DNA of 64,000 bases from Conoideocrella luteorostrata (Eukaryota; Ascomycota; Sordariomycetes; Hypocreales; Clavicipitaceae). This document shows positions 2,558-63,698 of the stretch, one piece after another (position 1 is the first letter of the stretch; each line of letters starts with the position of its first letter). The notes under the pieces were generated by a model. That model saw nothing but the letters and a program-made list of their open reading frames with translations, made no database searches and was not told where the DNA came from. The translations under genes were made by a program, and so were the position numbers. Where the stretch lies: the NCBI GenBank assembly GCA_032433595.1, contig JASWJB010000251.1:1-64000 (forward strand), given 5' to 3'.

Positions 2558-2636
2558 TCTTCGGTACGAACAATGTCTGGCAGTTGATGAGACAGTTTCT
2601 AGATCACTTCTTCAACACTAAGCTTCAATTGTCACA

Positions 2637-3863
2637 ATGAACACCTTCACTGCGGCCGTCCTCCTCTTGGGAACCGTCACTGGCTCCTTGGCAGCCCCCG
2701 CCAAGGAGTCCGGCATCACATTCAGCGTCCAGGCTATTCACGGCGGCATCCAGCGCCACGTTTTAGCTGATATTCAACGCACTTTCTATAAGTACGTTCC
2801 CGCTGACACCGTCGCTGCCTTACGGGCCGCTGGCGTGTTAAACGAACGCGATACGGGCTCCGTCATTACTAGGCCTGAGCCCAATGCCGACAATGTTGAC
2901 AACCTCTACCTCACTGAGGTCTCCATTGGCAACCCTGCCCAGAAACTCAACCTTGACTTCGACACCGGATCCAGCGACCTTTGGGTCTTCAGTACCGACA
3001 CCGACTCTTCCCAAGTCAACGGTCAGACTCTGTACCGGCCTGCGGACAGCTCATCTGCTAACCTGCAAGAGGGCAAGACCTGGTCCATTCGCTATGGAGA
3101 CTCTAGCTCTTCAAGCGGCATCGTCTATTCCGACGATGTCACAATTGGTGGATTAACTTTTAAAGGCCAAGCTGTTGAATCTGCTCAGAAGGTCTCAGAC
3201 CAGTTTGCCAAGGATAACCAGAACTCCGGTCTTCTTGGTCTCGCACTTGACAAGGGCAACACGATCAAGCCCACAAAAGGCAAGACCTGGTTCTCCAATG
3301 TCCTGCCCAAGCTTGACCAGCCTCTCTTCACCGTCCGTCTAAGACACAATGCCGAGGGCTCCTACAATTTCGGCTACATCGACAAAGCACAGTACTCGGG
3401 GACGATCAATTACACCCCTGCCTTCACTGACCCCCTTGGTCATCGTCTCTTCAACTCTACCGGCTACGCAGTCGGTACAAGCAACACTGTTTCTACCCCT
3501 ATCAAAGGAACGGCCGACACTGGCACTTCTCTGCTTATTCTTGACCCTTCCGTTGCTACGGACTATTGGTCCAAGGTCCCTGACGCCGAAAAAGTTCCTA
3601 TTTTGGGAGGCGCCGGCTCTGCTTGGGTATTCCCATGTTCTACCACCCTCCCCACGTTTTCATTCAACATCGGAAACGGCAAGATCACTGTTCCTAGCGC
3701 TGATCTCAACTATCAACCCACCATCAACAACTTGTGCGTCGGAGGAATTGCCACGCTCGACGGTCTCAATGGCCTCTCTATTTTCGGTGACGTTGCTTTG
3801 AAGTCAAGTTTTGTTGTTTATGACGATGGCAAGAGCCAACTTGGCTGGGCTCAGGGTGTATAA
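2637..3863 (+). CDS. Secreted pepsin-type aspartic protease (family A1)
   Basis: Intronless, 408 aa, usual length for fungal penicillopepsin/trichodermapepsin-like enzymes that hydrolyse proteins outside the cell at acid pH. Residues 1-19 form a signal peptide (hydrophobic LLLG core, then SLAAPA). Residues 20 to about 84 look like the activation propeptide. The two catalytic aspartates are visible: D109 in FDTGSS and D294 in ADTGTS. A flap-region YGDSSSSSG motif and a C-terminal cysteine pair (FPCST ... NNLCVGG) match the family. The ATG was chosen because it opens the signal peptide and follows a TATA box. GC-rich third positions and an intact frame suggest an active gene, although its neighbours are repeats. 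Roles in nutrition or host-tissue degradation are inference. Confidence 0.95.
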   Translation: MNTFTAAVLLLGTVTGSLAAPAKESGITFSVQAIHGGIQRHVLADIQRTFYKYVPADTVAALRAAGVLNERDTGSVITRPEPNADNVDNLYLTEVSIGNPAQKLNLDFDTGSSDLWVFSTDTDSSQVNGQTLYRPADSSSANLQEGKTWSIRYGDSSSSSGIVYSDDVTIGGLTFKGQAVESAQKVSDQFAKDNQNSGLLGLALDKGNTIKPTKGKTWFSNVLPKLDQPLFTVRLRHNAEGSYNFGYIDKAQYSGTINYTPAFTDPLGHRLFNSTGYAVGTSNTVSTPIKGTADTGTSLLILDPSVATDYWSKVPDAEKVPILGGAGSAWVFPCSTTLPTFSFNIGNGKITVPSADLNYQPTINNLCVGGIATLDGLNGLSIFGDVALKSSFVVYDDGKSQLGWAQGV

Positions 3864-5112: not shown

Positions 5113-8100
5113 TCAGGCACCGCCGCGACCACCAACGCCCCACTGCGCCTGCGCCTCCACGACGCCAGCCGCAATGGCCGGCAGCTCACGCCCCCGACCA
5201 GTGGGTGGCGCAAGGAAGCCAATGCCTATCAGGAAGTGCAGATAGCGCCCAATGTCCTCGCGTCCGACGCCCTCGCCTGCGCTGTCGTCGACACTCGTCC
5301 AGCGGTCTGCATCGGCCTGGAGCACGGCCACGGCGTTGCGGTCATCAAGCTCCGGCGCCCGTGTCGTCGATGGCAGGTCCGCCATCGCCATGTGGAATAG
5401 CGGCATAAGTGCGCTCTGCTCTTGGTCCTTCTCCACGGACCCGGCTGACACGAAGGCTTCGAGCCGCGTCTTCCACTCATCGTAATCAACCTCTGGTACC
5501 ACGTAGCCGTAGTACGTCAGCGCTGAGAGGAACTCGTTCATACGCAGCCGTGGGTGCCCCGTCACATGTACGACTTGGACACCGGGAAGTGGGTTGAGGG
5601 CTGCGGCGACAACGACGCGGGCAACATGGTCAACGGGGCAGGCGTTGATGGAGTTGATGATGCGCGGTCGTGCGCCCAGTTGCAGACACCCCTTACAGAG
5701 CCGAATAAGGAAGTCATCGGTGTTGGACACACCACTCTGGCGGCTACCGAGGATGTATCCCGGGCGGACAACGGCGCCGCGAAGACCTCGTTTGCCGGCT
5801 TCCCGGACAAGCTGCTCGGATACCCATTTCGTTTGCCCATACCCGGTCCCGAGACCCTCACGACTCCCAGCCATATTATCAGCCTCGAGCACTGATCCGC
5901 GCCCTGTAGCTGTCTGCTCATGCGACAACCTGATATAATGGTCCGTGTCTAACGTGGATGTTGATGATATGAAGGCGAAGAGTTTGGGCTTCCCCTCGTT
6001 ACAGAGCTTCATTGCGTCGATAGTTGACAGGACGTTACTGCGCATCATCCGCTGATAGGTGGCGATCCAGTGAACATGGGCCGCATTGTGAATGATAACG
6101 TCCACCGTCTCAGCAATGTGCTTCCAATCACTGTCATCGATGCCAAGCCGAGGTTTAGATATATCGCCCAGAACACATGAGACTCTTGCCCTCCATGAGT
6201 CCTGCCATAGCCCGTACCCCTTCAGGGATCTGACTAGACGATTTTGCGCCTGTTGAACGTCCTTGACTCCACGTATATGCACGATCAGCTTCGTGTTCTC
6301 CCTGTCTAGTATATCTTTGACTAGATAGGCGCCTAAGAAGCCTGTTGCGCCGGTGAGGAAGAAGGTAGCGCCGCGGGAAGGGCTGAGGGCGCTCGGCTCC
6401 GCGCCCTGGTATTTGGCATCCAGGGTGGTAACCAACTCGTCAAGTGATTCGGCGTAATTGATCTCGGCCGCCTCATTCATGACGGCAGCCTTGCCACCGC
6501 GGACGCGATCGACCTGGGTGCTTAGCGTGCCAAGCTCGGGGTTCGCGTATAGGACACCAATTGTAATGTCAACGCCCATGCTCTTGCGAATATTGAGCAC
6601 AAGCTGCTGGGCAAGAAGACTGTGACCGCCGCAGTCGAAGAAGCTTGATTCGGGCCTAGGTGCTGCGTAAGGTTTGTGGATCCAGAGAAGGCACCGATGA
6701 AGGCTTGGCTTGGGACTCTACATACCTGATGGTCTTCGCATTGAGACTTGGAATCAGAACTGACCACTGCGTGGCAATGGCTCTTTCCGTCTCGGACAGC
6801 TTCTCCCAGCTCTTTAGATTCTCTTCCGAAGCTTCCTCCGTCATGGCAGCAGCATCAGGGAAGGGCAGGTTCGGGGAGTCGACCTTGCCATTGGGGTTCA
6901 GAGGCAGCTTCTGCAGCACAATATAGACGGAGGGCACTGCATATGCCGGCAGACGGTCCTTGAGGTGGTCTCGTACTTCAGCCTGTATGCGGCGGAATCT
7001 CTTGAGATAAACTACACTGGAGCCCATCTCAACACCCTGGTCGTCCACATCCTGGAAGCCCTGGTCCTGGAGCCAGCGCTCCCATTCGGCAATCTCAGGG
7101 ACTACGTAGCTGACAAGTGTGGGCTCCTCATTGCGATCTCTTCGAACAAGAGTCTTGCAGTTTCGAACTAAGGGACTGCCGCTGAGATTGGCATCAATTT
7201 CATTGAGCTCGATGCGAAATCCGCGAATCTTCACTTGCGAGTCGATGCGGCCAGATACCCGCACAGCTCCCGACGGGAGATATTGTCCAAGGTCTCCTGT
7301 GCGGTAGAGTCTATCGCGAGCCCCTTGATAGTAACGACGCCAAGGCTCGCCTTTGTCCTTGGCCTTGTCAGTTTCTACCCACTTGGCCGTGTCCACAAAC
7401 CAGTTATTAACGAATTTCTCCTTATTCTTCTCAGCATCACCGAGATACCCTTCAGCTAACCCAGCGGCACGGATGAAGATCTCGCCGACCTCACCGGTGC
7501 CGCATAGTGAAGTATGGTCCTTAAGAGAAACAACAAGTACTTGCACATCCTGCATCCCCCATCCCGCAGGAACAGTATCGCCCAGGGTATCAAGAGCCGC
7601 TGGGTCTTGTGTGGCGGAGGGAATTTCGAAATACGACACTGCGCGAGAGGTCTCGGTGGTGCCATACATGTTGACGATGTTACATGAAGGCCCGAGCTTG
7701 CGCAGCGCCTTGCAATCACGAGTGGTAAGGATATCGCCGACAAAGAAGGCATGGCGCAAGGCGGGGAACGTAGCTACGGCACCGCCGCATAAAATTTGAC
7801 CCATGGCGGGAGTAAGGTGAACGATAGACGGTGACCAGGCCCTCATCCATTCACTTAGCTTTTCATGCTGGATGTCATCCTTGGAGGGGATGAGCAGCTG
7901 GGCTCCAAGCCAAAGGGGCGTCATGATGTCTGGGAAAAAACTTGAGGGTTAGCGTGAGCTGCAATGTGGTCTTGGGGACAGGTATTTTCTAACCGCGTTG
8001 AATAGGATCATGAGCAATTCCCGAGAGACAAGCAAAAATGCTCTCAGATGAGAGCTGGAAGCGCTCGGCCATCCATGGGAAATATCTTGTCAGGCTATAG

Positions 8101-28128: not shown

Positions 28129-30744
28129 TCATGGAGAAAAACGCCATCGCTTTGCATTTTCGTCAACCCACCACCGCGTTATGAAGGCAGCGTCTTCTAC
28201 CCACTTGGATGCGTCCAAGCCATGCTTGTCTTCCACGCTTTGCAAGAAAGACTCAAAGTCGAATGAAAGAACGGCGTCTTTTTCGTAGGGATCCTCTTCG
28301 ACATTTGTGAACCGCCACTCAATGTCCTTGACAACCGGCACAACCAGGCGCCAATTGGGGTCGCGCGCGTTGCGTGTAGCGATTTGAGCGCGACCTGTGT
28401 TCATGACAGTGAATTGCCAATCTGCCAATCCAGTGTGCTTTGACTCTTTATGTAGCGGTCGAATAAGAGACTGGCCCTCATAGTTGCGGACGAGGTCACC
28501 GGCGGCCTTTCGATCAGATGGAGACAGCGAGCCCGTCTCAATAAGCAAATCTAAAATCGTGGGCAAGATAGCGATCGAGTTGACAGGGGAGTTGATGTCG
28601 ATTGGCGGCAGCTTTGGGTGCGAAAGCACAAGAGGCACGTGGAAGTTGCCAATATTGGGCTGGTAGTATGGAGTCACTGCCCCGGTCTCGGGGACAGATA
28701 AGCCGTGATCTCCTACGAGAATAACCAGCGTCTCGTCACTAACGCTTTGCTCTTCAAGGATCTCGAGAATTCGTCCCAGCCATCGGTCGACAAACCCGAT
28801 AGTGTTGACGTAGTGGGAAAGGTCTTCCAGCTTGTCCCCCGCGGCGAGTGGCACATAAGTCTCCTCGTCTGGCATCTTGAAGGGGTGGTGAGCGGTACTA
28901 GTGAGGTGAGTGAGGAAGACTCTCTCATTCTTTTCCTTGGCAGTCTTAAAAGCATCCTGAATGTAGTCTTCTATTGCAGATTCGCGCATACCATAATAGT
29001 TGATCTCTGGCAAAGTCACCTTGCCGAACTTGGCAGCATCGCTTTGCAGGTACTCTTTGTGAATAAGATCCTCGTCCTTGTACCCTAGCACCGGCATCAA
29101 AAGGTCCTGTTTGTCGTAGAAGTTTGTCACTGACATCATGAATCGATTGTTCCATTTGTACTTGGTGTATTCATCTTTTGAGGCGACAGAATCGTCGGAG
29201 TGATTCAATGTGTTGAAGGCGTTAAATATGTGAGGCAAACAAGGCTGGTAAACGTGGTGATCATACTCGACATTGAAATCGGCAACCAGCGGAGTGATGC
29301 CACAAAGTGTTCCCGGAAGACTTTTGAGAGTGTATGTGCCGGTTGTATGATCGTTGTTGACATTGATTCCGCCGCGTCGCCTCGTCACGTTGTGGTCAAA
29401 GCCATCGTTGTAGTCGCCTGTAAGAAAGTTGGCAGTTTGTGTAAGGTTAGCTAGTCGCCCCTGCACTTCCTCGGGAAAAGTCCCATTCTCCCATGTTTCG
29501 GCAAGCTTTTGCCAAATCTGACCGTTTTTCTTAATTGGAAACACATCTTTGCGGGTGCTCTCCAGCTTGATCAGAACAACGTGGCGAATATTTATATCAA
29601 CGAGCTTTCCTCGGAGAGGGGCAAGCACGTCATCCTCAAGGTTGGATATCTTGAGAGGGTCATGAGCAGCGTTGTAGTGTTCCACGTCATCCTCATACCA
29701 ATCTTCAAATCCGGGTAGAGGCTCGTAGCGCTTGGGGAGCCACTCCCAGCGGATAGGCTCGGCTAGAGCGGTTTGGTTGTCCCAGCCCCAGCCGATGCTC
29801 TCGCCATGGTGGGGAATCAAACTGGCAAGGGTGGGTGCGGAATGCGCAAAGTCAATGAACGGGAGTAGAATTGGAGTCCAGGACATGAATATGAGCGAGC
29901 CTTCGATTGGGCGAATAATAGACAGCGTAATCTGGGCAACCAGAAGTATACCGATTACAGTGTACAACAGCCACATTGCCTTATTCTCCCGCAGAGAGGT
30001 GGGAACCGCAGCTAGCGTGTGGCTCTTTCCGTCCAAATGGTAGTCTTCATCACCATCTGATCCATCCTCGAGGTCGAGTTCTTTCTGAGGAACGTGGTCG
30101 TACTTTACGGCACGGGGCACGTTGCGGCGACAGCACGTAATCTTGCTGAACAAAAAGGTGAAGGGCAGCTTGACAATATCGATGGCCATGCCAGCCAAGG
30201 CGAATGAGATGTCCTGGAGGAGCCAGCCGAGAACGAGAATGGTAACGAAAGCAATAGAGCAAGACACCAGTCCAGTTAGCAGCACCGACCAGGATGAAGA
30301 GTCACCAGCGAGGCCAATATTTCGCCAGTGAAGCTCAGATCCGGCCACAGCAAAGAAAGAAATGTTGATAGACGCTAGGGCATGCTGCATGAAAGTAATC
30401 AGGCAGGCCAGGCTGGTGGCCAAGAAACGCAAGCAAGAAACAGATGCGAACAAGGGTAGTTCGGCATCCAGTAACAGCCGAAGCATCAGCAGCAGCGCTG
30501 TATCCTGGGCAAAAAATGAGAGTCCCCATTGAGCCATCTCAGCTGGCGGAAGGGCCGTAATATGGGCGTAAATGTGAATACATTTTGCACTGAGTATCGA
30601 AACGGCGGCGATGGAGAAAACGAGTCGTCGATTAGCAAAACGAGTGGCAACCGCCAAACAGAGCCGTCTGTTGGTCAGAACGCAGCGTCGGCTGGCGAAG
30701 CGAGAAGCGAGGGAGCCGCCAGCGTTGTTATTTGAATCCATCAT
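28129..30744 (-). CDS. Membrane sulfatase/alkaline-phosphatase-superfamily protein
   Basis: Intronless, 871 aa. The N-terminal third (residues ~45-285) has five or six hydrophobic segments, for example LVFSIAAVSILSAKC, SVLLTGLVSCSIAFVTILVLG and MWLLYTVIGILLVAQITL. A large soluble domain follows. Sulfatase-superfamily signatures are visible: VVLIKLESTR (E395, candidate nucleophile T397) and the late metal-binding ILVGDHG (D679, H680). The topology (membrane bundle plus extracytoplasmic hydrolase domain) recalls LtaS-type phosphotransferases and fungal sulfatase-domain membrane proteins. The nucleophile is Thr rather than the Cys or Ser of formylglycine sulfatases, so phosphotransferase or phosphodiesterase activity is more likely than sulfate hydrolysis; that is inference. 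The arginine-rich N-terminus (residues 14-43) is unusual. The ATG pair at 30744 gives the complete membrane region. Confidence 0.9.
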   Translation of the reverse strand: MMDSNNNAGGSLASRFASRRCVLTNRRLCLAVATRFANRRLVFSIAAVSILSAKCIHIYAHITALPPAEMAQWGLSFFAQDTALLLMLRLLLDAELPLFASVSCLRFLATSLACLITFMQHALASINISFFAVAGSELHWRNIGLAGDSSSWSVLLTGLVSCSIAFVTILVLGWLLQDISFALAGMAIDIVKLPFTFLFSKITCCRRNVPRAVKYDHVPQKELDLEDGSDGDEDYHLDGKSHTLAAVPTSLRENKAMWLLYTVIGILLVAQITLSIIRPIEGSLIFMSWTPILLPFIDFAHSAPTLASLIPHHGESIGWGWDNQTALAEPIRWEWLPKRYEPLPGFEDWYEDDVEHYNAAHDPLKISNLEDDVLAPLRGKLVDINIRHVVLIKLESTRKDVFPIKKNGQIWQKLAETWENGTFPEEVQGRLANLTQTANFLTGDYNDGFDHNVTRRRGGINVNNDHTTGTYTLKSLPGTLCGITPLVADFNVEYDHHVYQPCLPHIFNAFNTLNHSDDSVASKDEYTKYKWNNRFMMSVTNFYDKQDLLMPVLGYKDEDLIHKEYLQSDAAKFGKVTLPEINYYGMRESAIEDYIQDAFKTAKEKNERVFLTHLTSTAHHPFKMPDEETYVPLAAGDKLEDLSHYVNTIGFVDRWLGRILEILEEQSVSDETLVILVGDHGLSVPETGAVTPYYQPNIGNFHVPLVLSHPKLPPIDINSPVNSIAILPTILDLLIETGSLSPSDRKAAGDLVRNYEGQSLIRPLHKESKHTGLADWQFTVMNTGRAQIATRNARDPNWRLVVPVVKDIEWRFTNVEEDPYEKDAVLSFDFESFLQSVEDKHGLDASKWVEDAAFITRWWVDENAKRWRFSP

Positions 30745-33700
30745 AACAGCGAGGTAGGGGGTTCACTGTCGAAGAAATATGTCATGCTCGAAAAGACGGA
30801 ACGGGATGTCTGAGGAATCCCAATAGCAAAACCGAGGGAGATAACGAAGCAATGAAAGAAGGAAAATAGTGTTCCAAGCGAAGTGTTACACGTCTGCGCC
30901 GCTGTTGAAGCGGTCTCGCTCTGTTGTCGCTTGCCGTCCTCCCCAAAAGCTGGTCAATGATAGAAGACGTTCACGGGCTGTGAGCCAAAGTCGATACGAA
31001 AAGAATGAGGTGATCCGAGGTCTTGGAGGTGAGAATTTTGTAGGGGGAGGCAGGAAAGAAGAAGTAAATGGGATATGTGACAAAGATGTACTCGGCATTG
31101 TAGCAGCGGGCGTAGGGCTTGTAAAGGGCAGTAGCAATATGGGTAGAGAGGCTAAGGAGGATACGAGGGAGGAGACGACGGACAAGGGCAGGTGGAGTGT
31201 GACAGGAGGAGAAGAGGGTGCATGTAGCGAATCAATGTCTGACCGAAAGTAGGATGGCATTTTTGCCAACATTGATGCGAGCAGCCATCCCAAGCCATCC
31301 AAGCCATCCCAAGCCAGCCCCTGCCGCCAGCAGCAAAAGCCACCCGTCAACCCAAAATGTACGGAGTACTCTGTATTTGCCCTTTACTGGCCCTACTTAC
31401 TATTCCGTACGATCTGACGCCTTTTTGATTCGTTTGTCAGAGCTCAACCGCCGAATTGGCTATGCAGCACGAAGCAAGGTAGTAATACATACATAGCATT
31501 AGTGCAACCAGCTGTTCAAGGTCGGGGCCAGTCCGAGCTTTCTGCTACAGCGGGCCTTTCGTCGTCACATAACACGAGGACCAAGATCGTGCTGCCATCT
31601 GTGACGGAGCCCGTAGCGCAATCCACGGCCGGCCAGGGACACAAGAGGGCAGGAGGCAAAGGAGGGCAGAAGACGGTTTACGTAAGAACTTGGCGCCGAA
31701 TGATGCTGCCGAATTGAGCAACAGGACACACGACGGCGGGTGCGGATGCGGGCGGGTACGCTGAGAGTGCTGCAGCCTTCCCCGACGTGGTGAAATGTGT
31801 GAGGGTGGTGGCAGTGGGTAACTGGGAGGAGCCCACAAGCGATGCCGACGCGACTTCGTTCATTCAGATAGACGCCGTGTCGCGTGCGCTTTTGCCGTTC
31901 ACTCAGCAACTCCCTGAGCGCACTATCATCTCTGAACGCACCATACGATAATGTATTGAACCCAGCACTGGCCCTCCAGGCAAGTCATGCTGAAGAGACA
32001 GCCCGGACCCATAATATTGAAAATTATTCAACAATAGTCTAAACGCGGGCGAACGCACAGCTCGCAACCCTTGAGTTGGCAACAGGCACCGGGAGACAAG
32101 ACGACGACAGGATAAATGGCGTCAATTCCCTGTTTACGGGCGGCTTGCAATGACACACTGCACTATTGACAGTCAGCACAGTACTCCGTACGGAGTACCG
32201 AGTGCTCCGTATGACAGGTGCAATAATACTGCGGAGTACTCCGTAGTATGTACTAATATCGCTACCTGCAACCCTGGAAGGACATTCGACGGAAGTGATG
32301 AGACGAGCATGGATGTGGGCGGGGATTGGGGGGTGTCTGATATCATCGACACTGTAGATCCGACAGGGGGGGGAAACAACTGCCCGTCAGTGCATGCTGA
32401 GGTACGGGGGATTTTTCAGTGCAGCGTAAGGAGCACAGCACAGGATTGTGGCCGCGCTGGCAGAGTGCCAAAGATGCATGCCATGCAAAGCAGTGCTCCG
32501 TACGGCGTAGAGGCCACTGGCCGCATGCTAAGTGGCGAGTGTGCTTTACGTACGGTGATGTTGGGCGGTACCGCTTTGTTGGAATGTGAACTTAACCGCG
32601 TTGAGTCGTGCAGCCTGGAGAAAACCGCCTCTGGAATGCTCCCCTGCACTCCCTTTCCGTACAGCGTTTTGATGCCACAAACCCGCACAAAGTTAGGCTT
32701 CATCACAATTGTCCTTCCATCACCCACCGTACGCCAGTTTGGTAATGTGGTGAAGCGACAATTCCTCTGTATCGGCGACTTGGACCGTAAATGTCAGAAA
32801 ATTTCGTGGTGGTTGACGTATTAGTAGTACATGGCCGTCATGGCATGCCGTGCCCCCGGCGGATGTGGACGTATTTCAAGCATTGGTCGCGTGTCACTAC
32901 TCCGTAGACCCCCTGTGATGTCGCCAGGTTACATCTGAATTGAGTACGGAGTAAACATGTCGCTAACATCGAGATGATTGCTGCGCCTGGATGGCTTGCT
33001 GCAGCCCTCATCATTGTCGGCAGATGTACTCCGTATTTTAGGAGCGATTCCGCCATAGACACTGCAGATATTTGGGACTAGTGCTCTATCGGGGTCAATA
33101 ATCTGGCGTCTTTCTTTGGACTTTCCGAGCTTCCTTGTTTCTGTTCCCTTTTCTTTTTTTTTTTTTCTTGTCCTTTTTTTTTTTCTTTTTTTTCTCCTCT
33201 ACTATCCTCTTTTTCTTCTCTCGCACTGGACTGAACCGAGGTGGTGGATCTGGCTTGGCGACCCCAGTTTCCGCGGAGAATGCAAAACCCCATTTTGTCC
33301 AGAGTACGAGCAATCCACATTGTCGCGAGGTTGATACGAGACGACAAATCTGTACAAGCTGCCCGTGCCATTCTGCGTCGGGGCAAGGGTTGAAGTCAAG
33401 AAAGACTAGGCGGCCCTAGGAAAGGCTAAAAAGCTGGACAAAATTTTCCATTTCTTCCTTTTGCGGTACCGTGGCAGATATCAATCAGGGTCGTAGCCGC
33501 GATGTGGCAGAGTCTTGGCGTGTGGCAACGAGACTTAACAGGGTGCTGTCGAATGATTAGCTACTCGTACGGAGTACGGAGTAACTACCGTTCTAGAGAA
33601 TGCGCACGAGGGAGGGGCTCACAAGGGTCGAATTCCAGTAACCAGAAACCCAAATTGAAAGCGTCCAGATCTGGATAGTGGCGCGTAAAAATACGAAACC

Positions 33701-38576: not shown

Positions 38577-40514
38577 ATGACGACCGACGAGAAATCCTTC
38601 CGAGGCGACGTTGCCCCAGAGCAGAAGGGGACTCATCGTCTAGATCCATCCCCGGATACGCGGCCGCGAACAAGCTCAGACGTCCGCGTCACGTACGATG
38701 CCAACATCACGACGCAAAACCTATCGCCCCGTCGCGCAAGCGCTCGCAACCGATCCTCTCGATCTGACACCGAGGTCTACCGCGACGGATCGCTCCTCAG
38801 ACGACGAAGCACACGCGCCGCGACATTTAAAACCATGGACGACTCTGATGAATTTGACACGTACGGCTTGCCCGATGGCTGGCAACCTGGCTCAGAGCCC
38901 GGTTATGATCCAGAGCTACCTGACGGCGGGCACGCATCGATGCCCACGCTGAGCGCAGAATGCGACATTACAGTTGTTGACTTCTCACTGGATCGTATGG
39001 TCAAATGTCATTTCAACAATGAATCATTTATTACATTTTTGGAGCACCAACCGCAAGAGAGCTGGACAAAGTGTCGCTGGATCAACATCAACGGGCTAAG
39101 CTGGGATGTTATCCAGGCGGTAGGGACAAAGAAGGGTCTTCATAAACTTGCCTTGGAGGATATCATGAACATACGAAATCGAACAAAAGCCGATTGGTGA
39201 GTTTAATTGCGATGTGCTATTTCGGTAACCTGGACATGCCAAGAAATTCTAACTAGTGGGTATCGTTGCTTGGCATTTTAGGTACCCGAACCACGCATTC
39301 ATCATCATGACCCTCCAGAAGCTCGTGCATGTGGTGGATGACGATGATAGTTCCGCTTCTTCAGTTAGTATGCGATCGAAATCGTTGATCAAAGGATTTT
39401 TGAATGGTTTCGGCAAGAGCATGCCGCAGAGCGAAATGGATCCGGAGCGTCACATTCGGGACGCCAATGGTGGGCCAGTTCTGTCAGATGGTTCGACGCT
39501 GGAGGAAACATCCATGCTTCGCTCGCTGCAACGCTACCATGCGTCTGGGAATGAGGCGCGGACGGAATTCATGGAAAAGCACTCGTCTCTGTCACAGTAC
39601 AACATGGCCGTGTCGGCAGAGCAAGTCTCCATCTTCCTCACCAACGACAACACCGTCATTTCGTTTTTCGAAATATCCGCCGCCGACGTCGAGCGTCCCA
39701 TAGTCACGCGATTAAGCACGCCTGGGACTATTCTTCGCGAGTCGTGCGATGCCTCGCTTCTTGTGCAAGCCATCATTGACGCCGTTATAGATCTTGCCCT
39801 TCCCCTAACAGCCGTGTACACCGATCTCCTTGGCGACTTGGAGCTCGATGTTCTCACCTCGCCAAGCATCAAACAAAGCCGCAAGTTATACATATGCATC
39901 AGCGAGATCAACAAGATGCTCCGATTCCTCAATCCTATAGACAACCTCGTCAACGTCCTACGTGATCATCGCACAAGTCTATCTCCAGAAGGCGCTACGC
40001 GAGCACTCCAAAATCCCGCTAGCGGCGTCATCGTCACCCCCTTAACGCATACGTATCTCGGCGACGTTCTCGATCACTGCATCATCATTACTGAAGCATT
40101 GCAGCAGTTGAAGCAGTCCTCAGAGAATCTCATAAATCTCATTTTTAACACCATCTCAGCGAACCAATCCCAATCTATGAGACAATTGACCATGGTGACA
40201 ATTATCTTCTTACCTCTGACATTTATCACCGGGTTTTTTGGACAAAATTTTAAGGATGAAGGGTTTCCGGAGATAAGTCACGGTATCTGGTATTTGTAAG
40301 CTCTCTTGCTGTTTGCGATTTTCTCCAGATTGCGAAGGTCGGTATGCTGATGATGATGGTATTTGCTAGCTGGGCGTGTGCTGTGCCTACGGCGTTAGCG
40401 ACAATTCTAATTCTCATGCGAGAGATGATTTACTCTTGGTTTGTAAGAGTCGGGCAGAGGAAGCAAATTTTGTCAACGCGGAAGAGGGGAAAGAGGCGGC
40501 GTAGGAGAGTGTGA
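38577..40514 (+). CDS. CorA-type magnesium/divalent cation transporter (ALR/MNR2-like)
   Basis: Three exons: 38577-39196, 39282-40295, 40370-40514. The introns are 85 and 74 bp. Spliced 1779 nt, 592 aa. The N-terminal ~130 residues are polar, Arg/Ser/Asp-rich and probably disordered. A CorA cytosolic domain follows (WININGLSWDVIQAVG, LHKLALEDIMNIRNRTKADWYPNHAFIIM), then a long helix. Two C-terminal membrane segments come last: QLTMVTIIFLPLTFITGFFGQNF, then WACAVPTALATILILMREMIY, and a very basic tail. CorA proteins form pentameric channels for Mg2+ at the plasma or vacuolar membrane. The signature GMN after the first membrane segment reads GQN here. Exon 3 supplies the second membrane segment, without which the protein would stop after WYL, so the second splice is well supported. 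Confidence 0.9.
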
Positions 40515-48251: not shown

Positions 48252-51200
48252 ATGAGCGACCGTAAGAGAGCCAAGTCGCCCGATGCGGATGCTGAGCGAG
48301 AGGAGGAAATGCAGTACGGAACTCACGAACAAATGAAAGAAGAACTTCAGAAAAGGTTGGCAAGCACCTGTTCATCTACTGAACCCGACAACTGATTAAC
48401 TGTTTCAGATACCCTAATCGTCCAAGGAATCATTCCAAGACGCTGGCCTTCTCAGACCTTTTCTTGCAGGTGTTTAATCCTCTTAACGAGAACAAGAAGC
48501 AGCCAAGGAGCGGTCCAGGTCGCAAAAAAGGCCCCCACGGCGCGACAACAATTTCCCCCCAAGAACAAAGACGCCACATCATTGAGAGATTCATCAGTCG
48601 ATGGCGAAAGGAAGTCGGCAATGACTTTTACCCCGCGCTGCGCCTGGTGCTGCCCGACAAGGACGGCGACCGAGGGGTTTACGGGCTCAAAGAGAACGCC
48701 ATAGGAAAGCTGCTGGTGAAACTGATGAAGATTGACAAGAATTCGGAAGATGGATATAACCTCCTGCATTGGAAACTTCCCGGACAAACAATAGCTGCTC
48801 GAATGGCGGGCGATTTTGCTGGCAGGTGCTACGAGGTGATTTCCAAGAGGCCCATGAGAACGGAAGTGGGCGACATGACAATTGCTGAGGTGAATGAGCA
48901 ACTGGACAACTTGGCCAAATCAGCGGGGGAAGCCGATAATCTGCGTGTCTTTGAGACGTTCTACAATCGGATGAATGCTGAAGAGATGTTATGGCTCATT
49001 CGGATCATCCTCAAGCAGATGAAGGTGGGTGCCACGGAGAAGACGTTCCTGTACCTGTGGCATCCAGATGGGGAGACTCTGTTCAGCGTGTCGTCGAGCT
49101 TGAGACGGGTATGCTGGGAATTATACGACCCAGAGGTCCGATTGGAGAACGAAGAGGCCGGCGTAAGCTTAATGCAGTGCTTTCAGCCGCAGCTGGCACA
49201 GTTTCAAATGCCATCTTCGTTTCAAAAGATGATTGATCTTATGCGTCCGACCGAGGACGACCCGGAATTCTGGATTGAAGAGAAATTAGACGGCGAACGG
49301 ATGCAGATGCATGTGGTGGAAAGCCCCGGATATCCCGGTGGCAAGCGGTTTTGCTTCTGGTCACGGAAAGCAAAGGATTACACATACTTGTATGGGAAGG
49401 GGTTGCAGGATGGCGATTCTAGCTTGACGCGCCATCTGAAGAACGCATTTGCGTCAGGCGTTCGAAACTTGATTCTCGACGGCGAGATGATCACATGGGA
49501 CATGGCAGTAGACAAAATCGTGCCTTTCGGAACGCTAAAGACGGCTGCCCTTGCAGAACAACAGAACAAGTCAGGAACCGACGCGTCAGGCCATCGACCT
49601 GTATTCCGTGTATTTGACATTCTTTATCTGAATGACAAGTCGCTGACGCAGTACACACTGCGCGACCGACATAATGCCCTCGAGAAGGCTGTTAAGCCCG
49701 TCCACAGACGGCTCGAAATCCACTCTTATACCAGCGCGACAACGGCAGACGCCATCGAGCCAATGCTACGACAAGTCGTTGCCACCGCATCAGAGGGCCT
49801 GGTACTGAAGAATCCTCGTTCCATGTACAGACTGAATAGCAGAAATGATGACTGGCTCAAGGTGAAGCCTGAATACATGTCAGAATTCGGCGAGTCCCTC
49901 GACTGTGTCGTCATCGGCGGCTATTACGGCTCGGGTCGGCGAGGTGGCACTCTGTCCAGTTTCCTATGCGGCCTCCGCGCTTCCAAGAACCATGTGCAGG
50001 CTGGTGTCGATCCCGAAAAATGCTTCAGCTTCTTCAAAGTCGGCGGGGGCTTTCGCGGCGAAGACTACGCGGCGATTCGGCACCACACCGAGGGGAAGTG
50101 GATGGAATGGGATCGCAAAAACCCACCGACTAAATATATCGAACTTGGGGGCGGCGAGAGCAAGCAGTTCGAACGGCCGGACGTATGGATTCGTCCCAAG
50201 GACTCGGTCATTGTGTCCGCAAAAGCAGCCAGCGTAGGACCCTCCGATAGTTTTGCGCGTGGATATACGGTGCGCTTCCCGCGGTTTCGTCAGCTGCGCC
50301 TAGATCGGAATTGGGATACGGCCCTGTCGGTGGATGAGTTTGAGGAACTCAAGAAGCGCATCGACGAGGAAGTTAAAGAGAAGGCAATGACTGTTGAAGA
50401 TCGGAAACGCAGAAACCCCAAGCGAGTGAAGCGACAGCTGGTAATTGCTGGCGAGGACTCTGCCCCTCCGGAGTTTGAAGGCCAGCAATCGAAAGTCTTT
50501 GAAGGGCTCGAGTTTGTTGTTTTGTCTGAGTCTTTGAAACCATACAAGAAGACCAAAGTACAGCTGGAAGCTATCATAAAAAAAAATGGAGGGACCATAT
50601 CCCAGCGCGCAACCACGGCGTCACACATGGTCCTCGTCGCCGATAAGAAGGTTGTCAAGGTGGCAAGTCTTATCAAAGGAGGCAAGGCGAACATTATTAA
50701 GCCTAAGTGGATCAAGGACTGTGTCGAGCAAGAAGGCACGTTTCTGTTGCCCTACGAGGAGGGTCATCTGCTCCACGCTACGGAGGAATTGACCGCAATT
50801 GCGGCGCAGAACGTGGACATGTACGGCGACAGCTTTGCGCGAGACGTGTCGATTGAAGAGCTGAAAGAGATTATGGGAGATATGCCTAAATTCGAGATGG
50901 GCGAAACCTTTGATGGAGATTATTTTCTGGGCGAACTGGAAGAGCGCGGCAAAGGGCTGACCCATTTAAGAGGCTTTATGTTCCGTCGGTGTGTGATTCA
51001 CATACAGGTTGTTGGGGTCGTGGATCCGACTCTGGTGAGCAAGCTGGCTCACTACGTCGAATATGCAGGTGGCAAGGTAGTGGAGCAGCTAGAGAGGAGG
51101 GTGACGCAAGTGGTGCTGGTTGGTGGTGATGCGATGGAAATTGGGGAGGCGGCTGATGGAGTGAGAAGGGAGATTTCAGCGTGGGAGATGGTACCGCGTG

Positions 51201-51277
51201 TGGTGGGCGAGAAGTGGATTTTAGAGTGCTGGCAGGAAAAGACATTACTGGATGAAGAGCCCTTTGCAGTTCAATGA
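48252..51277 (+). CDS. LIG4: DNA ligase IV (ATP-dependent, non-homologous end joining)
   Basis: Two exons: 48252-48355 and 48409-51277. The 53 bp intron has a CTGATTAAC branch site and a TTTCAG acceptor. Spliced 2973 nt, 990 aa, usual for fungal ligase IV. It seals double-strand breaks in the nucleus together with the XRCC4/Lif1 and XLF partners. Domain order: N-terminal DNA-binding domain (~50-290); adenylation domain with the active lysine K327 in EEKLDGERM; motif-like segments DGEMITWD, EGLVLKNP and DWLKVKPEY; OB-fold (GSGRRGG, SVGPSDSFARGYTVRFPRF); then two C-terminal BRCT domains (from FEGLEFVVLSES, with WIKDCVE, and from RGFMFRRCVIHI, ending in WILECWQE), between which the XRCC4-binding segment is expected. 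Exon 1 supplies a charged N-terminus and the TLAFSDLFLQVFNPL segment is only complete after splicing. Nothing suggests damage. Confidence 0.95.
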
Positions 51278-59323: not shown

Positions 59324-60577
59324 TCACTTTCCTCCAAATGTCAACCCACTGACGGAACCGTTGACGCTCCACGCCTGAAACCCTGCATTGTGCTTGCCAA
59401 ACTTCACGATCGACGGCTGGCCTCTAGTGTCTGTGGTCGCCGCATCATTCTCGCACGACGCCATGCGTCGTGATCCACCTGTACCCCTATCGCCATTTCC
59501 ATCCTCCAGAGCATATCGCTCGAGTAAGGCTCTTCCCACCGCTGCCGCCGTAGCTGCTGCGTAGTCTTGCCATGCTTTGTTCTTGTGACTATCCGAGTAG
59601 TCGCATATGCCTTTGATCACAACGCACGGCACCTCGTCCCAAGCACCCGCGCCCTCCATCTCAAAGGCAATCACACCATGCTCCGCAGAAATGCGATCGC
59701 GGTCTTCCCCCGACTTCATCACTGCGTTGCCTGAGCCTATGCAGCCAATGAATATCGCCGGGCTGTGGCCACCGCCTTCGTCTGGCTGCTCTCTCTTCAC
59801 TAAGTGGACATTGCTGCACCCGAGATCCTCACAAGAAGTCTGGATGGCGAGTTCGCAGATGCGAACAGATCCATCACAGCACGTGTCGCAGGATTGCTTA
59901 TGCGAGTGCCGATACTTTGATGAGAAAAGATTATCCTTGCTCACCCCTAGATATTGATATTTTGCCCGCCGCCGCTTATGTCTTGCTGCTTCCTGCAAGT
60001 TCTTGAGATAAAGCATAGCTTTGGCTTGTAACCTCTCACGTCCAAACTCCGTCCCGATGCTCGCCAGAAGACCTCGGATGTCCTTGTTAGCCCTGCCAAG
60101 GCTGTCTTCTATCGTACCCTTTGCCATAAAGTGGCCCAGATACTGTCGTCCATAGTCGTATTGAGCGACCGTTTTGCTAATAACAACATCGCCAAGAAAG
60201 ACATCGCAGCCGTTGATCTTAGGAACCCCTCCACAGACTCCAATAAGCAGGGCCAACTTCAATCTGGGAAAGCTCAAACGCAAGCAAGCAGCCGTAGACG
60301 CGGCATTCGGTGTGCCCATCGCAGGAGCTGATACAAGGACAACGTTGTGGATGCCTAACCGCCCGGTGACATACGTGTTCGTGTCTCCTTCCGCCCGGCG
60401 GAAAGTGTCGCCATCGTCGTCCCAAAATTCATCAAATAATAAAGTTACGGCATCAGTCTCACAAGATAATGCGCAGATAATTGCGACAAAGAAATCTTCA
60501 CGACTAGTTGGCTTCATAAGTGCAGTCATCGCAGTAGGTAAAGGATGGTGTAGAGAGGAAGGCGAAGCTTGTGACAT
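59324..60577 (-). CDS. PNP/UDP-phosphorylase-type effector with C-terminal amyloid-like motif
   Basis: Intronless, 417 aa. Residues ~28-350 form a nucleoside phosphorylase (PNP_UDP_1-type) domain: FFVAIICALSCETDAV, VVLVSAPAMGTPNAA, LLIGVCGGVP, ILGDVVISK-like GDVVISK, then IGCIGSGNAVMK, the ribose-binding AFEMEGAGAWD, VIKGICDYSDSH and YAAATAAAVGRALL. In fungi this domain is common as the N-terminal effector of NLR receptors, and also occurs as a stand-alone protein beside them. The last 29 residues contain FGKHNAGFQAWSVNGSVSG, which matches the N-terminus of the NLR encoded 190 bp away and looks like an amyloid signalling motif. A cysteine-containing insertion (residues ~205-260: CDTCCDG, CEDLGC) is unusual for phosphorylases. 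The inferred role is an effector triggered by the NLR, perhaps by depleting nucleosides or nucleotides. Divergent from the NLR. Confidence 0.85.
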   Translation of the reverse strand: MSQASPSSLHHPLPTAMTALMKPTSREDFFVAIICALSCETDAVTLLFDEFWDDDGDTFRRAEGDTNTYVTGRLGIHNVVLVSAPAMGTPNAASTAACLRLSFPRLKLALLIGVCGGVPKINGCDVFLGDVVISKTVAQYDYGRQYLGHFMAKGTIEDSLGRANKDIRGLLASIGTEFGRERLQAKAMLYLKNLQEAARHKRRRAKYQYLGVSKDNLFSSKYRHSHKQSCDTCCDGSVRICELAIQTSCEDLGCSNVHLVKREQPDEGGGHSPAIFIGCIGSGNAVMKSGEDRDRISAEHGVIAFEMEGAGAWDEVPCVVIKGICDYSDSHKNKAWQDYAAATAAAVGRALLERYALEDGNGDRGTGGSRRMASCENDAATTDTRGQPSIVKFGKHNAGFQAWSVNGSVSGLTFGGK

Positions 60578-60767
60578 GCGTGCCTAAGGGCGTACGCAGC
60601 GTCGTAGAACGAGGCTGGCGGCTACCGGAAGGCGGGGCATCAACCACGCTAACACTCAAGGCTAGCTGAGTACCACGCAGTCGTCTCCCCTAGACTCATA
60701 TCTCCATCGCATCTCAACTCCAAATCAATAGCGAGAATTCATCTGCTGTCTTTCATCTCTAAGCATC
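60578..60767. promoter_or_regulatory. Bidirectional promoter of the effector/NLR pair
   Basis: 190 bp separate the two divergent start codons, so both leaders and core promoters must fit here. The right half is C/T-rich (TCTCATCTCCATCGCATCTCAAC-like), as usual for fungal leaders. No consensus TATA box is evident. Co-expression of the pair is an inference from this layout. Confidence 0.6.
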
Positions 60768-63698
60768 ATGAGCACCACCACTTTCGGCGATTTTAATTCG
60801 GGTTTTCAGGCGAAGATGATCCATGGACCCGTCAACGCGGAATTCCACCACTACCACCCCGCTCTAGGTAGGTTCCGACAGCACGCTAACGCTACACCTC
60901 TGTTGCTGACGAACAGGCAGAGCGACCGGAAACGCCGCCACTTCCATCGATCCTGATTCCATTTGTTCGCGATAGAGACTTTGTGAATCGAGGAGAAGTA
61001 CTCGACCGGATCAAATATAGCTTTAGTCAACCAGGGTCGCGGACCGCGCTCGTCGGCCTCGGTGGTATTGGGTAGGTTAACTGCGTTATATTAGGTGGTA
61101 TCCTTTTGACATGTCGCTAATTTATGCAGCAAATCACAACTCGCTATTGAGTACGCATACCGCACTCGGGAGCAATCGCCTACAAAATGGGTGTTTTGGG
61201 TCCACGCGAGCAACGCTGCTCGGTTTGAGCAGAGCTTTCGCGACATTGCGACGTGCATTAGGGTTCCTGGGCGGCAGAACCCGAAAGCTAACATATTTCA
61301 GCTCGTTCACGACTGGCTTCGAGACGCAAGACAAGGACCCTGGGTTATTGTTCTCGATAACGTAGACGATGCGAGTTTCTTAAAGGCTCCTGTCCCTGGT
61401 AACGAAACGGGGGAAATGACAGCAAAGACTTCAAATTCGAAACAGCTAATATTGTGCATCCCACAGTGCCAGCATGGATCCGTTTTGATTACGTCTCGAA
61501 GCAGGGGTGCTGCGCTAGAGCTTGTGGAATACGCTGATATTATTACGATCGAGCCGATGGATAAAAAGGATGCCTTGCAACTGTTCCGGAACAAGCTTGG
61601 CCAGAGCGATGATGAGAATTGCGTAGCGGAGCTCGCTAGAGCGCTTGAATATATGCCGCTCGCCATTGTTCAAGCGGCAGCGTATATTTTGCAAAGAAAG
61701 CCACGATGCTCTGCGCAGGAATATTTAAATAAGTTCCGCCATAGCGACAAGAGAAAAATCGGGTTACTTGGTCTTGAGGGCGGGAAACTCCGTCGAGATA
61801 CTGAAGCAAAGAACGCAATCCTTATTACATGGCAGATGTCATTCGATTACATTCGCAAAACCAGAACATCTGCGGCAGACTTACTGTCACTCATGAGCTT
61901 CTGCGATCGGCAGGGCATACCCGAAACTCTACTACGCGATCGAAATGACTGTGTACACGACCATAATGAACAGAATCTACGTGATGGAACTCACGACGTG
62001 GGCGAGGAAGATGAACACAATAACATCACCGTAAGCGGCGAGAGGACCAACAGCGAGGGCGAAAACGATAGTGATAGCGACTCAATTGAATTTAGATCTA
62101 ACTACAGCGATAATAACCAGTTTGAAAACGATATCATAGCCCTGCGGGACTTCTGTTTCATTACTGCCAATGACGACAGGACTTCTTTTGAAATGCACAG
62201 ATTGGTTCAGCTCGCTACGCTTGAGTGGCTCAGAGCTCATAAGGTGTACGAGCAATGGAAGAACCGGTTTCTCGTAAGACTCTGCGCAGAGATTCCAGAG
62301 GGAGAATACAAGAACTGGACCAAATGCCAGGCGCTTTTTCCGCATGCACAATCAGTGGCTGCCCAAAGGCCAGTCTCTGAGAAGTCGATGAAAGAGTGGG
62401 CTACAATCCTATACAGGGCAGCATGGTATGCCCTGAGAGTGGGAAAAGGAATTGAAGCAGAGGATCTTTCTATTAAGGCTTTGAAAGCAAGAAAGAAGAT
62501 ATTCGATAAGCCGCATAGGCACGTGACCGATTCAAAAGCAATGGTGGCATTAGCGTATAGCCTCAGAGGCCGGTGGGAGGCGGCAGAAGAGCTGGAGGTG
62601 CAAGTGATGGAGACGAGCAAGAAGAAACTAGGGGAGGATCATCCTGATACGCTGACGAGCATGGGCAACTTGGCGTCGATATACAGGAACCAAGGCCGGT
62701 GGGAAGCGGCAGAAGAGCTGGATATGCAAGTGATGGAGACTCACAAGAAGAAACTAGGGGAGGATCATCCTAATACGCTAACAAGCATGGGCAACTTGGC
62801 GTCAACATACAGGAACCAAGGCCGGTGGGAGGCGGCGGAAGAGCTGGAGGTGCAAGTGATGGAGACTCACAAGAAGAAACTAGGGGAGGATCATCCTGAT
62901 ACGCTAACGAGCATGGGCAACTTGGCGTCAACATACAGGAACCAAGGCCGGTGGGAGGCCGCGGAAGAGCTGGAGGTGCAAGTGATGGAGACTCGCAAGA
63001 AGAAACTAGGGGAGGATCATCCTGATACGCTGACGAGCATAGGCAACTTGGCGTCGACATACAGGAACCAAGGCCGGTGGGAGGCGGCAGAAGAGCTGGA
63101 TGTGCAAGTGATGGAGACTCACAAGAAGAAACTAGGGGAGGATCATCCTGATACGCTGACGAGCATGGGCAACTTGGCGTCGACATACAGGAACCAAGGC
63201 CGGTGGGAGGCCGCGGAAGAGCTGGATGTGCAAGTGATGGAGACTCACAAGAAGAAACTAGGGGAGGATCATCCTTCTACGCTAACGAGCATGGGCAACT
63301 TAGCGTCGACATATTGGAACCAAGGCCGGTGGGAGGCGGCGGAAGAGCTGGAGGTGCAAGTGATGGAGACTCGCAAGAAGAAACTAGGGGAGGATCATCC
63401 TGATACGCTAACGAGCATGGGCAACTTGGCGTCGATATATTCGAACCAAGGCCAGTGGAAGGCGGCGGAAGAGCTGGAGGTGCAAGTGATGGAGACTCGC
63501 AAGAAGAAACTAGGGGAGGATCATCCTGATACGCTGACGAGCATGAACAACTTGGCATGGACATACTGGGAATCTCAACGCGCTGAAGAAGCTATAAAAT
63601 TAATAAGGCGTTGCGTCCGATTAGCAGAAGCTAAACTAGGCATTGATCACCCAAATTACTTGTCTTCTAGTAAGACTTTAGCTAGTTGGGAAGCTTGA
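60768..63698 (+). CDS. NLR receptor: amyloid-like motif, NB-ARC, tetratricopeptide repeats
   Basis: Three exons: 60768-60867, 60921-61071, 61130-63698. The introns are 53 and 58 bp. Spliced 2820 nt, 939 aa. Residues ~5-27 hold TFGDFNSGFQAKMIHGPVNA, the counterpart of the neighbour's C-terminal motif. A proline-rich linker (ERPETPPLPSILIPF) leads to the NB-ARC domain: FVRDRDFVNRGEVLD, P-loop GLGGIGKS (K85, S86; split by intron 2), Walker B VIVLDNVDD near D160, GSVLITSRSRG, and a GLPLA-like MPLAIVQAAAYIL. An acidic Ser/Asp/Glu-rich insert lies at ~370-410. Eight 42-residue TPR units occupy ~564-899, then a diverged last unit ends in SSSKTLASWEA. NB-ARC/TPR proteins are fungal NLRs that sense self/non-self or other ligands and activate cell-death effectors. 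The acceptor at 60920 was chosen because it alone gives the conserved ERPETPP linker in frame. Confidence 0.9.
62568..63575 (+). repeat. Eight tandem 126-bp TPR-coding units
   Basis: Units start at 62568, 62694, 62820, 62946, 63072, 63198, 63324 and 63450, each exactly 126 nt (42 codons), nearly identical in DNA. Protein differences are confined to a few positions: unit positions 10-11 (EV/DM/DV), 17 (S/H/R), 27 (D/N/S), 32 (M/I), 38 (I/T) and 40 (R/W/S), plus R2Q and E4K in unit 8. The antisense strand shows long serine/proline-rich open frames that are artefacts of the repeats. Confidence 0.95.

Follow-up and report, generated by a model that had tools for sequence, protein, structure and literature searches.

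Closest described systems and the locus

The PP signalosomes are the closest described systems to the gene pair reported here. Those of Podospora anserina (HELLP/PNT1) and Chaetomium globosum (HELLP/SBP/PNT1) carry the PP motif in the first ~30 residues of a nucleotide-binding oligomerization domain-like receptor (NLR) and at the C terminus of an adjacent effector. Podospora PNT1 is an NB-ARC/TPR receptor, and prions of its PP head, PNT1(1-31), activate the effector HELLP (PMC7885112). PP accompanies both pore-forming and enzymatic effectors (PMC9815663). We analyzed a 64,000-nucleotide stretch of the genome of the entomopathogenic fungus Conoideocrella luteorostrata (Clavicipitaceae), positions 1 to 64,000 of contig JASWJB010000251.1, called the window here. 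It contains a gene for a PNP_UDP-type nucleosidase (PNP) and a divergent NLR gene. As in the PP signalosomes, the motif lies at the receptor N terminus and the effector C terminus, and the receptor is of the NB-ARC/TPR type, as in Podospora PNT1. Differences from those systems are that a nucleosidase serves as effector, that Ile/Val mostly takes the place of the second Asn in the NxGxQxGxN pattern among the relatives, and that the window copies lack the second core glycine. The best explanation of the whole, which we hold to be probable, is an in-trans receptor/effector pair in which the motif would nucleate activation of the nucleosidase.

Pairs of this kind have been described with other motifs. 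In 2012, Daskalov et al. proposed UDP-phosphorylase/STAND pairs from Aspergillus oryzae, A. terreus, and Magnaporthe whose two proteins share a terminal motif; these were described with sigma-type motifs, unlike the window pair (PMC3321046). Wojciechowski et al. described pairs of a PNP_UDP effector and an NLR sharing the PNP_UDP-associated motif PUASM in 2022. The PUASM pattern is FxGxGxQxxGxGxF and occurs on NACHT or NACHT/WD40 receptors. Amyloid and prion behavior was shown there for the peptides of one pair, and the effector-side peptide formed prions in Podospora (PMC9815663). The layout is therefore not new. The addition is a motif variant that a single genome uses on its nucleosidases, in three paralogous pairs. 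No PNP_UDP protein with a PP motif is described in words in the literature seen, and the supplements of PMC9815663 may list one.

The shared terminal motif

The PNP gene is a single open frame of 417 amino acids on the reverse strand (59324..60577). It matches Pfam PNP_UDP_1 (E = 1.2e-13) and has a 5'-methylthioadenosine/S-adenosylhomocysteine (MTA/SAH) nucleosidase fold. The NLR gene lies on the forward strand (60768..63698) and encodes an NB-ARC/TPR protein of 939 amino acids. The two genes are separated by a divergent intergenic gap of 190 bp (60578..60767). An earlier note on this DNA, made from the sequence, had described this spacing and an enzyme encoded apart from the NLR; both descriptions hold.

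The motif core of the PNP, FGKHNAGFQAWSVNGSVSGLT, spans residues 393 to 413 (59339..59401, reverse strand). That of the NLR, FGDFNSGFQAKMIHGPVNAEF, spans residues 6 to 26 (60783..60845, forward strand). They are identical at 9 of 21 positions without gaps, in agreement with the nine identities that the earlier note had counted. The best ungapped BLOSUM62 score between the last 40 residues of the PNP and the first 40 of the NLR was 50. None of 5000 double shuffles reached it (maximum, 43). The NLR head scored at most 28 against the tails of the 103 listed motif-free homologues and at most 20 against 66 internal 40-mers of the window PNP. The window PNP tail scored at most 27 against the remainder of the NLR.

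We also trained a profile on NLR heads only (n = 76), none of them from C. luteorostrata, leaving effector sequences out. The heads were chosen by a short N terminus and the pattern N.G.Q/E (76 of 93). The effector set (n = 123) comprised 120 listed PNP homologues, the window PNP, and two further proteins, P0241 and P0242. Our counts refer to lists of homologues, cut at the best 120 of 1612 for the PNP and the best 120 of 3187 for the NLR. The profile matched 20 of the 123 proteins: 17 of the 120 homologues, the window PNP, P0241, and P0242. All 20 matches lay no more than 12 residues from the C terminus and scored 10.6 to 36.2 bits, with the window PNP at 14.0 bits. The other 103 proteins scored at most -1.8 bits, and 6150 shuffled proteins scored at most 6.6 bits. 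P0241 and P0242 are not independent of the motif, because they were retrieved by a tail query.

Two G/N-rich termini may resemble each other by chance, the motif is short, and the window pair alone has 9 of 21 identities. The shuffles, the tails of other homologues, and recurrence at other loci and in other species argue against this explanation, which we regard as barely credible. The shared terminal motif and the divergent layout are confirmed.

Recurrence and portability

The C. luteorostrata assembly (46.4 Mb) was examined for further copies. Loci C109 and C140 each have a PNP and an NLR gene in divergent orientation, and both proteins carry the motif. Of the copies, that at C140 is the most similar to the window pair (PNP, 90%; NLR, 798 of 939 residues). 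Consecutive locus tags on contigs of the same length place partners next to each other in C. luteorostrata (007098/007099, 006139/006140, and 012920/012921) and in Lecanicillium saksenae (g107/g108); the PNP of 012920/012921 is partial, and no tail is seen on it. The partners in Pochonia and Beauveria are presumably adjacent as well, as their contigs match in length. The two genes recur together, as would be expected of the gene pair that the earlier note had proposed.

At C18 (265462-268145), the PP-like motif is shared by the NLR QQS21_001742 and a gene that lies upstream on the same strand. The NLR head and the upstream gene match the profile with 21.2 and 20.6 bits, and the last exon piece of the upstream gene ends in FRGQNSGLQAGTISGGLHGVTFGRN. 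By eye this gene was taken for a SesB-like lipase. That assignment was unconfirmed: two of its three frame pieces were without a Pfam match, the third matched only in the tail (PF17046, E = 0.043), and the 15 DUF676 sites located in the genome do not include C18. At C8, there is a PNP tail of the PP-like kind (11.2 bits), split across two frames. No NLR was recognized among the open frames of the 9.5 kb around it. Fragmentary PNP and NLR copies, interrupted by several stop codons, are present at C361:9850-12722 and C554:4091-5404. Their TAG/TAA stops look like those left by repeat-induced point mutation.

The motif also occurs on an effector of another family. P0241 and P0242 have 39 of 48 tail residues in common and no other significant stretch. 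P0242, from Stachybotrys, is a PNP with 38% identity to the window enzyme. P0241 contains a PF17111 domain (28.1 bits; cut-off, 27.2), named PigL_N in Pfam and described as HeLo-like (PMC9815663). As in the PP systems, the tail is carried by a HeLo-like protein. By analogy with HELLP and SBP, P0241 and P0242 are perhaps two effectors of one NLR.

On the receptor side, the motif was found in 87 of 104 short-headed NLRs among the listed homologues, versus 1 of 14 whose N-terminal region is long. The 87 of 104 is partly built in, because the training heads were chosen by short N terminus and pattern; the contrast with long N termini and the effector matches are independent of that choice. P0226 and P0227, whose models begin inside the NB-ARC domain, were left out of the long group, and P0219 was reassigned from long to short after reading. 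Among the 14 long N termini, Pfam domains were HET in five, SesA in three, and PNP in one. Another five look like PNPs only by eye; a scan of three of them gave no PNP_UDP match. The sole long NLR with the motif is P0136 (L. saksenae NLG97_g3419). This one protein has, ahead of its NB-ARC domain, a SesA domain together with sigma-like repeats and a weak copy of the PP-like motif.

The PNP homologues most similar to the window enzyme bear the PP-like tail. Tails of the SGNTFGNNxxIxQGD type occur on 35, 42, or 43 other homologues, by strictness of the pattern. In a tree of 76 PNP rows (19 PP-like, 42 SGNTFGNN-type, and 15 of the 59 without a readable tail), a 54-row group splits from the PP-like rows with support of 95/99. 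It contains the 42 SGNTFGNN-type rows, 12 without a readable tail, and zero PP-like rows. The C. luteorostrata genome has a further divergent PNP/NLR pair at C503:11461-15799; the tail of its enzyme has another motif, of the SGNTFGNN type (NVFGDGARINQGDLGGNTMF). Its NLR head appears similar by eye, and a profile of 43 SGNTFGNN-type tails gave no significant match to it (5.4 bits, E = 3.3).

Because of the profile matches, the recurrence, the portability of the tail, and the contrast between short and long heads, the window pair looks like a receptor and its effector acting in trans.

Motif class

The Pfam model PF17046, "Ses_B", is described as a PP model under a wrong name (PMC12261475). It matched the C109 NLR with 23.4 bits as a six-frame piece and 18.1 bits as the full protein, and Talaromyces P0201 with 41.1 bits. 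In the effector alignment A1, 14 of 20 members matched at E <= 1 (best, 1.4e-4). Most relatives share the G-phi-Q-phi-G core with the PP systems and retain NxGxQxG plus a later GxV. Position Q+2 is Gly in 79 of 87 NLR heads and in 18 of the 19 other effector tails. At position Q+4, that of the second Asn, Asn occurs in 5 of the 87 heads and in none of the 19 tails; 74 of the 87 heads have Ile/Val there. In the window, the NxGxQ half is present, Q+2 is Trp or Lys, and Q+4 is Val or Ile, so neither the full NxGxQxGxN pseudopalindrome nor the G-phi-Q-phi-G core is formed. The placement typical of PP, at the NLR N terminus and the C terminus of the adjacent effector, is seen at the window locus, C109, and C140. 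By sequence comparison the window motif is a diverged relative of PP and RHIM-like. We name it PP-like and stop short of classing it as PP, because the matches are mostly below the curated Pfam cut-off and Ile/Val replaces the second Asn.

The earlier note had assigned the pair to the PUASM class or a variant of it. A PNP_UDP enzyme does adjoin an NLR here and both carry one terminal motif, as in PUASM pairs (PMC9815663). The PUASM pattern was absent from both window termini by reading, the receptor has NB-ARC and TPR domains in place of NACHT or WD40, and PF17046 gives a partial match instead. A PUASM pair is accordingly very improbable. What stands of the note's reading is a PNP/NLR pair with a shared motif, and what falls is the motif class. 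The same note's likening to HET-S/NWD2-type pairs applies to the layout and the common terminal motif. No sigma-motif repeats (GxGxQFNxx or GGTQNINT) were found in either window terminus by reading, and NACHT_sigma had no match there at E <= 10.

Conservation and selection

In 18 tailed PNPs, mean pairwise identity was 70% in the motif, 46% in the linker, and 75% in the catalytic part. The linker comprises residues 357 to 391 of the window PNP (59405..59509, reverse strand). The ratio of nonsynonymous to synonymous substitution rates (dN/dS) of the PNP catalytic part was 0.16 against C140 and 0.13 against C109. Between the window and C109, PNP dN was 0.136 in the tail motif, 0.211 in the catalytic part, and 0.712 in the linker. 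In this comparison, the NLR head motif had a dN of 0.156 and a dS of 1.25. The NB-ARC and TPR parts of the NLR had dN/dS of 0.17 to 0.25 against C140 and C109 and are under purifying selection. The conservation of motif and catalytic part relative to the linker, together with the portability of the tail, therefore fits a tag that joins receptor to effector in trans.

Enzyme, receptor, and neighboring genes

(a) PNP. The closest solved folds of the window PNP are hydrolytic MTA/SAH nucleosidases. Hydrolysis is for this reason likelier than phosphorolysis, and the earlier name of phosphorylase is doubtful. The structure was modeled from a 91-row alignment with a predicted local distance difference test (pLDDT) score of 82.9; residues from 366 on mostly have pLDDT < 50. 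The fold and the catalytic-type acidic residues place the enzyme in the MTA/SAH-nucleosidase-like branch of PNP_UDP. Asp326 (59600..59602) is Asp in 85 of 91 rows; the residue of MTA/SAH nucleosidases that it aligns with is the Asp in their ISD segment, taken here to be catalytic. Glu308 in EMEG (59654..59656) is kept in 91 of 91 rows and aligns with the Glu of their MEGA segment. Glu40 (60458..60460) is Glu in 89 of 91 rows, with a gap in 2, and is the expected counterpart of Glu12 of bacterial MTA/SAH nucleosidase. A His/Cys-rich stretch (59816..59908) contains His224, His226, Cys230, Cys233, Cys241, Cys249, and Cys254, each kept in 88 to 91 of 91 rows, and is a possible metal site as judged from its residues. 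All these sites are on the reverse strand. Solved bacterial MTA/SAH nucleosidase chains have ~230 residues and probably lack this stretch. Met17 is nearly invariant among homologues, and translation may start there. PADLOC reports the window PNP by profile similarity as "Effector, PN-superfamily" and PDC-M60C.

(b) NLR. The spliced window NLR is identical to QQS21_009606 of C. luteorostrata over all 939 amino acids, and this identity to the deposited protein supports both introns. All features are on the forward strand. Exon 1 (60768..60867) carries the N-terminal motif and is followed by intron 1 (60868..60920). Exon 2 (60921..61071) encodes the RPETPP linker and the start of the P-loop and is followed by intron 2 (61072..61129). 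Exon 3 (61130..63698) encodes NB-ARC (Pfam E = 4.3e-8), DUF7779, and TPR repeats (TPR_10, E = 4.8e-136). The protein has the parts of an NLR of the STAND class: an N-terminal signaling region, an NB-ARC domain with the P-loop GLGGIGKS, and C-terminal TPR repeats. The TPR array (62567..63566) consists of near-identical units with a period of 126 bp, 7.9 copies, and 94% matches by Tandem Repeats Finder. Near-identical repeat arrays are known in NLRs with variable repeat numbers (PMC4986451).

(c) Other genes. The window also contains frames for an AMP-binding/carrier/reductase enzyme resembling a nonribosomal peptide synthetase (5116-7948). Further genes encode an aspartyl protease (2622-3860), a sulfatase (28132-30762), CorA (39253-40296), and a DNA ligase with BRCT (48383-51274).

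Proposed mechanism and its rivals

We propose that the TPR repeats would sense a ligand and that the NLR would then oligomerize through its NB-ARC domain, gathering the N-terminal motifs. The gathered motifs could nucleate a RHIM/PP-like cross-beta stack. The nucleosidase, through the copy of the motif on its disordered C-terminal tail, would be recruited to the stack, and the enzyme may be activated by clustering or templating. The active nucleosidase would hydrolyze an adenine nucleotide, stopping or killing the compartment. PNP effectors of bacterial defense are immune ATP nucleosidases (PMC10197012, PMC12881547). The window PNP resembles them as a PNP_UDP-type candidate defense effector with a PADLOC PN-superfamily match; it differs in that activation is proposed here through the NLR tag. 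Immune ATP nucleosidases convert ATP to adenine and ribose triphosphate. By this analogy, our best guess for the substrate is ATP.

Several observations weigh against this mechanism. The 42-residue NLR terminus matches PF17046 with 17.2 bits (E = 0.0048), below the curated cut-off of 23.2, and the window PNP has no match to it. The second glycine of the GxQxG core is replaced in both window copies, by Trp in the PNP and Lys in the NLR, and these copies may be weak or inactive. In the tail motif, the window and C140 differ by four changes, and since three of these alter the protein (ratio, 0.79), recent constraint is not demonstrated in that comparison. For the window tail, its own NLR head comes 59th among 120 heads and fits no better than many foreign ones. 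Among six PNP pairs there was no preference for the own partner, with 112 of 720 pairings as good or better, so no private channels are demonstrated among them. When the C18 pair was added, a choice made after seeing it, pairings as good or better than the real one were 4 of 120 for five pairs and 130 of 5040 for seven, and C18 contributed most to this. Oligomerization, amyloid templating, enzyme activation, the substrate, and cell death are steps that we infer.

The loss of glycine bears on two other explanations. Both C140 partners likewise have Trp/Lys at this position, and since no other copy is as close to the window pair as C140, the loss was possibly a single event. The window (C251) pair may be a weakening duplicate, with the C109 pair working and the C251 and C140 pairs drifted from function. 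The stop-bearing copies at C361 and C554 show such genes being lost in this genome. The window genes themselves are without stops, and the dN/dS against C140 is 0.16 in the catalytic part and 0.23 to 0.25 in the NLR. We consider this explanation unlikely. The motif may alternatively be a non-amyloid homotypic docking tag that forms a defined complex and no self-propagating fold. The missing glycine fits such a tag, and the sequence evidence shows only that the tag is shared, conserved, and portable. Against it stand the prions and fibrils formed by PP (PMC7885112), the described motif nearest to this one, and the low confidence with which the tail is modeled, as for disordered tails. We view a docking tag as rather doubtful, and return to the amyloid-type receptor/effector pair as the preferred explanation.

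A broader network is a tentative and rather unlikely extension of that explanation. One genome would have a shared RHIM/PP-like amyloid code, in which at least four NLRs and at most five effector loci (nucleosidases and one further gene) bear versions of one motif that can stand in for each other, connected many-to-many. C503 would be a separate channel with a different motif. The code would have drifted to a glycine-less form in two nucleosidase pairs and would switch on an ATP-type nucleosidase.

If the receptor/effector reading is true, the locus would be a compact and testable case of a RHIM-like motif that activates a nucleotide-destroying enzyme in place of a membrane pore. The Trp/Lys replacements would test the need for the second core glycine, which is central to RHIM. 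The three paralogous pairs and the swaps of tails between effector families would test how private an amyloid code is.

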